A DNA stretch of 38,978 nucleotides from Geitlerinema sp. BBD 1991-9 (GTDB lineage: Bacteria > Cyanobacteriota > Cyanobacteriia > Cyanobacteriales > Geitlerinemataceae): the NCBI GenBank assembly GCA_001657325.1, contig LWRO01000037.1, forward strand, positions 1-38,978, given 5' to 3'. This document shows, in pieces, positions 24,052-26,385 of the stretch. The notes below the pieces were generated by a model that saw only the letters and a program-made list of their open reading frames with translations, had not been told where the DNA came from and made no database searches. Position 1 is the stretch's first letter; the number at the start of each line of letters is the position of its first letter. The position numbers were made by a program, and so were the translations under genes.

Positions 24052-24102
24052 CTAGGCTACAGTTGAGAGAAGTTCGACAGCCTTTTTTTGCTTGTGTTGC
24101 CG

Positions 24103-24591
24103 ATGCACGTCCGCCACGCCTGCGAAAGCGATCTTCCCTCTGTGGTTGAAATTTATAACGCCTCCATTCCGAGCTATCGGGCGACAGCCGATCTCTATCC
24201 CGTCTCGATCGAGAGTCGCCGTTCCTGGTTTTTCAACCATCGCCCAGATCGCTATCCTTTATGGGTGGCAGAATCCCAAGGGCAAGTCGTCGCGTGGTTG
24301 AGTTTTCGTCCTTTTTACGGACGGCCAGCCTATGCCGCAACTTCTGAATTGGGCATTTACGTCGCGCCCGATTTCCAAGGTCGAGGAATTGGAAGTCATT
24401 TACTGGAAATGGCATTGGCAAACGGGCGAAATTTAGGGTCGAACACGTTGCTGGCATTTGTATTTGCTCATAACGCACCGAGTTTAAAACTGTTCGATCG
24501 ATTTGGGTTTTGTGAATGGGGATATTTGCCGAGAGTTGCCGAACTCGCCGGGGTCGAACGGGATGTCGTGATTTTAGGAAAACGACTTTGA
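24103..24591 (+). CDS. GNAT acetyltransferase (phosphinothricin acetyltransferase-like)
   Basis: The 162-residue protein has the GNAT fold: MHVRHACESDLPSVVEIYN at the start, VAWLSFRPFYGR, and the acetyl-CoA site GIYVAPDFQGRGIGSHLL (Q/RxxGxG/A). A late FVFAHNAPSLKLFDRFGF motif follows. The overall pattern is like phosphinothricin/methionine-sulfoximine acetyltransferases, but the substrate is not fixed by sequence. I chose the ATG at 24103 over a TTG at 24088 because the protein then begins directly with the domain. It is 51 bases after the pentapeptide gene and 28 before the DUF1622 gene, all on the plus strand. Confidence 0.85.
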   Translation: MHVRHACESDLPSVVEIYNASIPSYRATADLYPVSIESRRSWFFNHRPDRYPLWVAESQGQVVAWLSFRPFYGRPAYAATSELGIYVAPDFQGRGIGSHLLEMALANGRNLGSNTLLAFVFAHNAPSLKLFDRFGFCEWGYLPRVAELAGVERDVVILGKRL

Positions 24592-24619: not shown

Positions 24620-25018
24620 ATGGAATTTCTCGAACACGCTCTCGTACAAGTGGTTAGCGTTTCCAAATTGGGATTAGAAGCCATTTCCGTGTTGTGTGTA
24701 CTGTTAGGGTTTGTTGCAACCTTACGCTTACTCGTGAGGCAACCCGAGCAAGTGTATCGGTTTCCGTTGTATCAACTGCGGTTGTGCTTCGGATCGTGGT
24801 TGGCTCTGGCTCTAGAATTTCAGTTAGGGGCAGATATTCTCGCGACGACGATCGCACCCTCGTTTGGAGCGTTGGGACAATTGGCGGCTTTGGCCGGAAT
24901 TCGGACGTTCCTCAACTTTTTTCTCGATCGAGAGTTAGAAGCCGAAGCCGAACGTCAACGGCAACAGCAAGAGACGTTTGCGCGATCGACACCACGGAAC
25001 CTCGATCGTTGTGGATAA
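24620..25018 (+). CDS. DUF1622 membrane protein
   Basis: The 132-residue protein matches the DUF1622 family: an N-terminal helix (LEHALVQVVSVSKLGLEAISVLCVLLG), a conserved RLCFGSWLALALEFQLGADILATTIAPS block, and a third helical segment IRTFLNFFLDRELE. It is predicted to be an inner-membrane protein with three segments; the function is unknown. The C-terminal tail is charged and Gln-rich. The stop codon TAA is itself the end of a DnaA-box-like 9-mer (25010-25018). Confidence 0.85.
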   Translation: MEFLEHALVQVVSVSKLGLEAISVLCVLLGFVATLRLLVRQPEQVYRFPLYQLRLCFGSWLALALEFQLGADILATTIAPSFGALGQLAALAGIRTFLNFFLDRELEAEAERQRQQQETFARSTPRNLDRCG

Positions 25019-25160
25019 CTCGATACGTTTTTCCACAGTTTTTCCACAGGTCTGTGAATCTGTCAATCCCTAATTTTACGGACGTTCTAGCAGTTTTCCA
25101 CAGTTTCCACAGGTGCAAAGATAAAGATAAGATTAAAAAAATATTAATTTCGAGGAAACA
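25010..25160. other. Cluster of DnaA-box-like sites with AT-rich tract (candidate origin)
   Basis: Five 9-mers resemble DnaA boxes. TGTGGATAA (25010-25018) is a perfect TTATCCACA on the other strand. TTTTCCACA occurs at 25029-25037, 25040-25048 and 25094-25102, and GTTTCCACA at 25103-25111. They fall within 102 bases. An AT-rich run (25117-25151) that could serve as an unwinding element follows at once. The region lies between two convergent genes. TTTTCCACA is, to my knowledge, the form used at cyanobacterial origins, but neither dnaA nor dnaN is in the window. Confidence 0.5.
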
Positions 25161-25355
25161 CTCGAAAAACTATCTTTTTCACACTCGATCGCGTGTTTTC
25201 TCGAGGAACTGGGGAGATCGGGTCGCGAGTAAAATGCTCTAGAAACGTTTGAAAACGTGGGATCGAGGGATACCGAAATTTTGAAACAGTCGCAGCGTTC
25301 GTTCACCCTTTACTCGATCGCTTGTAGAAGCGATGTGTCATTGGTTTGCTGCGAC

Positions 25356-25505: not shown

Positions 25506-25967
25506 TCAGGCGATGACTGTCGCTCCGTTGAGGTAATCTTGAATTTGACGTTCGTGGTCGTGGCAGAGGTTATCGAGCGGTAATTCGTCGATGCTAAACG
25601 ATCGAACGTCGAGGATTTCGTAGGTATCGCCGACTGACATCAGACCTTCGGCATCAACCTCCAGCAAAATCGAAATCGAATGAATTCTCGGGTCTCGATC
25701 GGGATGGGAGTATACCCCAACCAACCGACGCAGTTTTACGAGATCGAGTCCAGTTTCTTCCCGTAACTCCCGCTTGGCGGCGGAGGGAATATCTTCTCCC
25801 CAATCGATAATGCCGCCGGGAAGACCCCATTCTTTGGTATCTCGCCGCAGAATTAACACGATTTCGCCGTTGGGAAGGATTGGAATCAATGTCGCTCCCG
25901 AGATCGGGTGTCGGAAAATTACACCTAATACAGTTTTGACGTACTGCCAAGCTCGACCGACGATCAT
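25506..25967 (-). CDS. Nudix hydrolase
   Basis: The 153-residue protein has the Nudix box GIIDWGEDIPSAAKRELREETGL (GX5EX7REUXEEXGU), preceded by LPNGEIVLILRRDTKEWGLPG. These enzymes hydrolyse nucleoside diphosphates linked to other groups; which substrate is not clear. The ATG at 25967 begins MIVGRAWQYVKTVLGV, the usual N-terminus in cyanobacterial relatives. A longer frame from 26066 adds 33 residues that look non-coding. Confidence 0.88.
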   Translation of the reverse strand: MIVGRAWQYVKTVLGVIFRHPISGATLIPILPNGEIVLILRRDTKEWGLPGGIIDWGEDIPSAAKRELREETGLDLVKLRRLVGVYSHPDRDPRIHSISILLEVDAEGLMSVGDTYEILDVRSFSIDELPLDNLCHDHERQIQDYLNGATVIA

Positions 25968-26385
25968 GAGCAATAGAGAATAGGAAATAGGAAAAGTTGA
26001 AATTGACCCAAAAAGAATCCGCTTCGATCTGGGATTTCTTTGATTTTCGAGACTTGCTAAAATCACGGGAATTATAATTCAGTTTTTGGGTAATGTCAAA
26101 AAAAATCGATCGAAACGGTCTCGGGTACATCTCAAAACTGTAAATTCATACGAGAGAATCAGGGTTTCAGCCGCCAATTCTAATGTTTGTGCAAAACTGA
26201 GATGCTCTCAAACTGTATACTGGATACAGTATCCGTTATATTGTTCTAGATGCTCGAGATATTCAACAATGTTAAAGTAAGTGCTATCTAACTCAAAAAT
26301 CAGATCTCCCAACCCAAAATTTTCTTAAAAATCGTCAAAAATCTTGAATGAATTGCGATGCGTCCTGTTCGCTGTAGACGCTTCT
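25968..26385. other. Intergenic region with one palindromic site
   Basis: No gene was recognised. It lies upstream of the Nudix gene and downstream of the TPR gene, both on the minus strand. The only structure noted is the inverted repeat at 26212-26230. Confidence 0.45.
26212..26230. promoter_or_regulatory. 19-bp inverted repeat, possible operator
   Basis: ACTGTAT (26212-26218) and ATACAGT (26224-26230) flank a 5-nt centre. The CTG/CAG ends are 11 bases apart, one more than an enterobacterial LexA box. It could bind a dimeric repressor. No regulator gene is adjacent. Confidence 0.3.

Follow-up and report, generated by a model that had tools for sequence, protein, structure and literature searches.

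A candidate displaced oriC array lacking DnaA-trios in Geitlerinema sp. BBD 1991-9 and its relatives

Whether a cluster of DnaA boxes that lies at neither dnaA nor dnaN can be a replication origin is the question raised by an intergenic locus of Geitlerinema sp. BBD 1991-9, situated in a 38,978-nucleotide stretch of contig LWRO01000037.1 (hereafter the window). A first-pass annotation, made from the letters of the window alone, had proposed a candidate oriC at this locus, composed of five DnaA-box-like 9-mers in 102 bases with an AT-rich element straight after them, and these parts are present at positions 25010-25111 and beyond. An inverted box (TTATCCACA, 25010-25018, minus strand), which is an exact match to the DnaA box, is followed on the plus strand by box 1 (25029-25037), box 2 (25040-25048) and box 3 (25094-25102), all three reading TTTTCCACA, and by box 4 (GTTTCCACA, 25103-25111), which stands in tandem to box 3. 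The starts of boxes 1-4 are thus spaced by +11, +54 and +9, with a 45-bp spacer between boxes 2 and 3 (25049-25093) whose length is nearly constant in relatives (46 in genome G002). The AT-rich run at 25112-25147, a candidate unwinding element, has a GC content of 10% in the bin 25121-25140 and 25% in the bin 25141-25160, and AT reaches 82% at positions 7-46 past box 4. Directly after this run, a 7-bp inverted repeat (25148-25167) has a terminator-like appearance on both strands. The repeat is perfect and its fold beats that of most shuffles (z -2.66); two such sites were found in the window, against 1.7 expected from shuffles (sd 1.4), a number no higher than chance would give.

The density of boxes is far above that of shuffled sequence. 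Within 102 bp, the window reaches a maximum of four TTWTCCACA or five NTWTCCACA matches; when its sequence was shuffled 300 times with dinucleotides preserved, both patterns peaked at two. In the whole source genome (G000; 5.98 Mb in 113 contigs, with the array on contig C17), TTWTCCACA occurs 102 times (100 of the places being listed), compared with 55 for a reversed control. Pairs on one strand separated by up to 30 bp are found at two places only, the window array and C95:38056. The gene setting is also as first described. The DUF1622 gene (24620-25018, plus strand) ends within the inverted box, which supplies its last three codons, TGT GGA TAA, and it faces a convergent NUDIX gene (25506-26066, minus strand), while a GNAT acetyltransferase gene lies further upstream (24088-24591, plus strand).

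Comparison with other cyanobacteria indicates what kind of array this is. A pattern describing its order and spacing, TCCACANNTTWTCCACAN{43,47}WTTCCACANWTTCCACA, was searched in 386 genomes of the phylum together with a reversed control, and matched in 30 of them, once in each, with no match for the control. In 23 of these 30 genomes, dnaA and/or dnaN lies within 1.5 kb of the array; in four (G032, G045, G056 and G058), which belong to the same taxonomic order as the source genome, the array stands between the two genes. Some variation in form was detected, G058 having a distance of 53 for 54 and G032 an altered first box, and 19 of the 30 arrays, the window among them, have an inverted box 18-19 bp upstream of box 1 (at 19 in G002). 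A looser three-box form adjoins dnaA or dnaN in named cyanobacteria, as well as in some Clostridia, Acidobacteria and Poribacteria; these are examples rather than counts, taken from the best 80 of 115 matching stretches, and as the dnaN and dnaA queries of that scan were the source genome's own sequences, distant homologues may have escaped it. The shared order and spacing, found mostly beside dnaN or dnaA elsewhere, suggest that the window array belongs to the oriC type by descent and is not merely oriC-like, and its identity as a displaced cyanobacterial oriC array is, as judged from sequence comparison, very probable. The arrangement expected of oriC is borne out in order, orientation and spacing, but not in full, since the window lacks the DnaA-trio that 10 of the 30 arrays carry after box 4.

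The seven arrays with neither dnaN nor dnaA within 1.5 kb comprise five from the window's family and those of G351 and G313. The latter two (L074 and L089), oriC-type arrays for which neither gene was detected at that distance, may be further displacements. The first-pass annotation had remarked on the separation from dnaN and dnaA within the window, and this extends to the genome: the array, dnaN and dnaA of G000 are on three different contigs (C17, C65 and C113). Exact boxes were found neither on the 11-kb dnaN contig nor in the 14 kb examined around dnaA, and a search for a stronger cluster at dnaN gave none in G000 or in the relocated relatives. Genomes assembled into one or two contigs allow the separation to be measured, with their chromosomes treated as circles of 5.00, 4.87 and 4.75 Mb for G005, G007 and G010, respectively. 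The positions of array, dnaN and dnaA, in this sequence, are 2,841,768, 4,139,893 and 310 in G005 (one contig), 4,233,336, 521,841 and 3,503,871 in G007 (one contig) and 4,576,328, 3,610,781 and 2,456,275 in G010 (two contigs), so that the shortest distances are 1.30, 1.16 and 0.97 Mb from array to dnaN and 2.16, 0.73 and 2.12 Mb from array to dnaA. In G002, where both are on one contig of 3.98 Mb, 542 kb separate the array from dnaN.

The GNAT gene serves as a marker of the new position, being kept beside the displaced array. It was detected in 13 of the 14 genomes of the window's family (E <=1e-30), and in nine of these 13 the array lies within 1.5 kb of it; an array beside GNAT was not found within the 1.5-kb flank in G003, G004, G006 and G008. 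All nine relocated genomes fall in one clade of a dnaN tree (9/9, support 0.963), which is consistent with a single move. This tree comprises 72 sequences with automatic trio labels and was used for the grouping of genomes only, because one locus (L060) is labelled trio-less there yet has a trio. The remaining genome of the family, G001, has no GNAT match at the threshold. Some 170 bp separate its array, in which box 4 is weaker, from dnaN, and its dnaA is on another contig. The dnaA gene is present in 14 of the 14 genomes.

Conservation since the move has been unequal along the array. Nine loci were picked by their GNAT gene, and the boxes played no part in their alignment. Between the source genome and its eight relatives, identity is 78-100% for box 1, 100% for boxes 2 and 3 and 89-100% for box 4, compared with 22-56% in the spacer; for G002, the part downstream aligned badly and was not used. 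An earlier alignment, based on an expression that required most letters of the boxes, had left out G002, whose spacer is one base longer, and its box identities were partly built in. Box 1 is degenerate in G013. For the inverted box, full identity is confined to G002; in the seven genomes of genus g6, where it has been lost, identity is 0-44%. The DUF1622 gene also adjoins the array in G002 and was not found at four g6 loci checked (L040, L041, L042 and L044). On the right-hand side the neighbour varies by lineage, being NUDIX in G000, where G002 has an IS605-type OrfB and G005 an M48 peptidase, which argues against a conserved promoter target at the displaced array. As boxes 1-4 have been kept while the spacer diverged, DnaA binding is probably still selected at the array, and not as part of the promoter of a conserved gene.

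The unwinding side presents a different picture. In trio-bearing origins the pair of boxes 3 and 4 precedes the DnaA-trio, a repeat of the GCCCCTACTACTACTA type. Among the 30 arrays, all five of the window's family, all six of family f2 and all nine of family f33 are without the trio. The longest run in the window is one repeat by either rule applied, CTA-type or loose NTN, and the CTA-type run is also absent from the eight relatives with a displaced array. Four of the seven g6 genomes (G009, G010, G011 and G012) have a run under the loose rule, a rule that shuffled window sequence also satisfies in 16.5% of cases. In G001, with its array at dnaN, the trio is present. The trio-less arrays of family f33 (9/9) come from genomes placed by the dnaN tree in one group with loci of named Nostoc and Nodularia. 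Trio-like repeats were nonetheless detected in a named Rhizonema locus (L213) and, in weaker form, in Nostoc sp. B(2019) (L217), both of the Nostocales, and trio loss therefore appears patchy among the relatives of Nostoc. For DnaA of Synechococcus elongatus, opening of its origin in vitro has been reported to require boxes and trios (PMC8287927), and Nostoc sp. PCC 7120 has been reported to replicate without DnaA (PMC7198777). A tie between trio loss and DnaA independence amounts to a loose correlation, with one tested species behind it.

A further state was observed in genus g4, where no array was detectable in three genomes, one of them rated 100% complete, and dnaA is kept. A search for degraded arrays in genera g4 and g5, with up to three mismatches, gave five matches against one for the reversed control in G003, five against three in G004, five against none in G006 and one against two in G008. 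The best of these (G003:C39:1664) has one mismatch and no further boxes at the array spacing, and the boxes of 11 of the 16 matching loci were examined and revealed no array. For G004, it should be considered that the genome is 61% complete and that the contig with dnaN breaks off a short way upstream of this gene.

GC skew, proposed at first as a check, gave no clear signal for any of the candidate positions. It was sampled in 40 evenly spaced 20-kb pieces of the one-contig genome G005 and in 20 pieces each of G089 and G056, both raw and corrected for gene orientation. In G005, raw and corrected P values are 0.67 and 0.48 for the array, 0.24 and 0.38 for dnaN and 0.08 and 0.22 for dnaA, and the intended controls are equally without signal (P=0.19 and 0.21 in G089, 0.57 and 0.76 in G056). 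With the array taken as origin, only 44% of the sampled genes of G005 would be on the leading strand. According to the available part of one report, GC skew is unusable for locating oriC in cyanobacteria (PMC5987646).

The array is not the sole group of boxes in the source genome. A second conserved cluster at C95:38056-38085 also contains four boxes when the looser box NNTTCCACA is applied, so that it would go too far to regard the window array as unique. In the surrounding stretch (C95:38030-38090, about 8020-8090 of L007), CTTTCCACA, TTTTCCACA and TTTTCCACA follow one another at a spacing of about 21 bp, and GATTCCACA lies upstream of them. The flanking genes, which diverge, encode an SLC12-like permease and a DUF2811 protein. 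A DUF2811 gene was likewise close to similar clusters in all six genomes examined (G001, G002, G005, G007, G010 and, in weaker form, G041), with the permease beside them in four of the six. This cluster is a candidate DnaA-regulated promoter or titration site; as an origin it was rejected, given that G001 has an oriC-type array at dnaN plus a separate cluster of the C95 type. Triple TTTTCCACA arrays at a spacing of 20-22 bp recur away from dnaN across the order (L052, L056, L057 and many genomes), and their neighbours differ in the three examined: cation efflux and WYL genes, CpeT and methyltransferase genes, and a UPRTase gene.

Several described systems resemble the window array in part. DnaA-box clusters located away from dnaA, as in the window, are known from DnaA titration and reactivation sites of the datA/DARS type; to our knowledge, such sites do not keep the spacing of oriC, unlike the window array. 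The origins beside dnaN in S. elongatus (PMC7198777) and Cyanothece ATCC 51142 (PMC4674748) share with it the TTTTCCACA boxes, a tandem TTTTCCACAGTTTTTCCACA and an AT-rich flank, TTTTCCACAGTTTTTCCACA being present as well inside the Cbox23F oligonucleotide of Cyanothece 51142 (PMC4674748). As far as these origins are described in the available parts of the reports, the window array differs in not being beside dnaN or dnaA and in having no DnaA-trio. With the basal unwinding system (PMC8287927), it shares tandem boxes 3 and 4 facing an AT-rich run, at the site occupied by GCCCCTACTACTACTA in trio-bearing relatives, but it has no trio even under the loose rule given in the accessible text of that report, namely three or more 3'-NAN-5' no further than 16 bp from a box. 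The origin candidate of Nostoc punctiforme, in the Npun_F0036-F0037 intergenic region (PMC5987646, as far as available), is likewise a cluster that does not directly adjoin dnaA or dnaN. No more than a few genes separate it from dnaN (Npun_F0034), whereas the displaced array and dnaN are 0.5 to 1.3 Mb apart in G002, G005, G007 and G010. A limited literature search returned this case and, within its scope, no displaced origin in the window's family and no trio loss in cyanobacteria.

The explanation that fits these observations best, held with moderate confidence, is that the locus is an ancestral oriC array, displaced and trio-less, that is bound by DnaA and able to start replication. According to this model, the array would have been relocated from dnaA/dnaN to a position beside the GNAT gene in an ancestor of the lineage. 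DnaA would bind the boxes as an orisome-like complex, with boxes 3 and 4 steering the DnaA oligomer onto the adjacent AT-rich run, where a degenerate unwinding element may stand in for the canonical DnaA-trios. Replication could then start at the array, which might be one of several origins and be used facultatively. Counting against this model are the missing trio in the window and in the eight relatives with a displaced array, the loss of the inverted box in g6, the degenerate box 1 of G013, the want of support from the skew samples and the leading-strand share in G005, and the failure to detect an array in genus g4. That it is used as an origin at present is judged to have about even chances, or slightly better, on these comparative data. 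In three cyanobacteria, Nostoc sp. PCC 7120, Synechocystis sp. PCC 6803 and Synechococcus sp. PCC 7002, dnaA has been reported to be dispensable (PMC7198777), and a conserved array therefore need not be a used origin.

Three other explanations have to be weighed against a displaced array that can still initiate. The array may be a retired oriC at which initiation has ceased, in a lineage replicating without DnaA, with the boxes kept for DnaA titration or regulation. This is a possible but less probable reading, which follows closely on origin use in view of the missing trio and of genus g4, which has dnaA but no detectable array; the nine of nine trio-less arrays of family f33, which groups with Nostoc and Nodularia, point in the same direction, as Nostoc sp. 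PCC 7120 is described as not needing DnaA (PMC7198777). Against it, the box spacing has been kept after relocation beyond what titration should need, the displaced array has no conserved downstream gene to regulate, and the loss of the trio is not general among Nostoc relatives, L213 and L217 being the exceptions. It is very unlikely that the true origin is elsewhere, at dnaN, at dnaA or at the C95 cluster, with the window cluster as a by-product: C95:38056-38085 does provide a second conserved cluster, but the stretches examined near dnaN and dnaA in G000 are without exact boxes, no array was found at dnaN in the relocated relatives, and both kinds of cluster coexist in G001. A cluster arisen by chance, or a DnaA site that regulates genes and has no relation to oriC, would agree with the intergenic location and with the regulation of genes by DnaA in other bacteria (PMC7198777), yet it is improbable in the extreme, as none of the 300 shuffles reached the observed box count, the architecture is common to 30 of 386 genomes and the flanking genes in the window converge.

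For the family, the displaced array means that an array of this type is found away from its usual neighbours dnaA and dnaN, in one-contig chromosomes as well, which matters for the prediction of origins. Its genomes constitute a natural series, in which the array with its trio is at dnaN (G001), is displaced and trio-less (nine genomes) or is not detectable while dnaA is kept (three g4 genomes). This series makes testable a question left open in the available part of PMC7198777, namely the role of DnaA where it is kept but dispensable for replication. A more far-reaching possibility, considered doubtful, is that a working origin moved as a bare box array and opens without DnaA-trios, the neighbouring genus having lost the array. 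If true, a relocated trio-less working origin would represent a snapshot of cyanobacteria abandoning the control of replication by DnaA and oriC.
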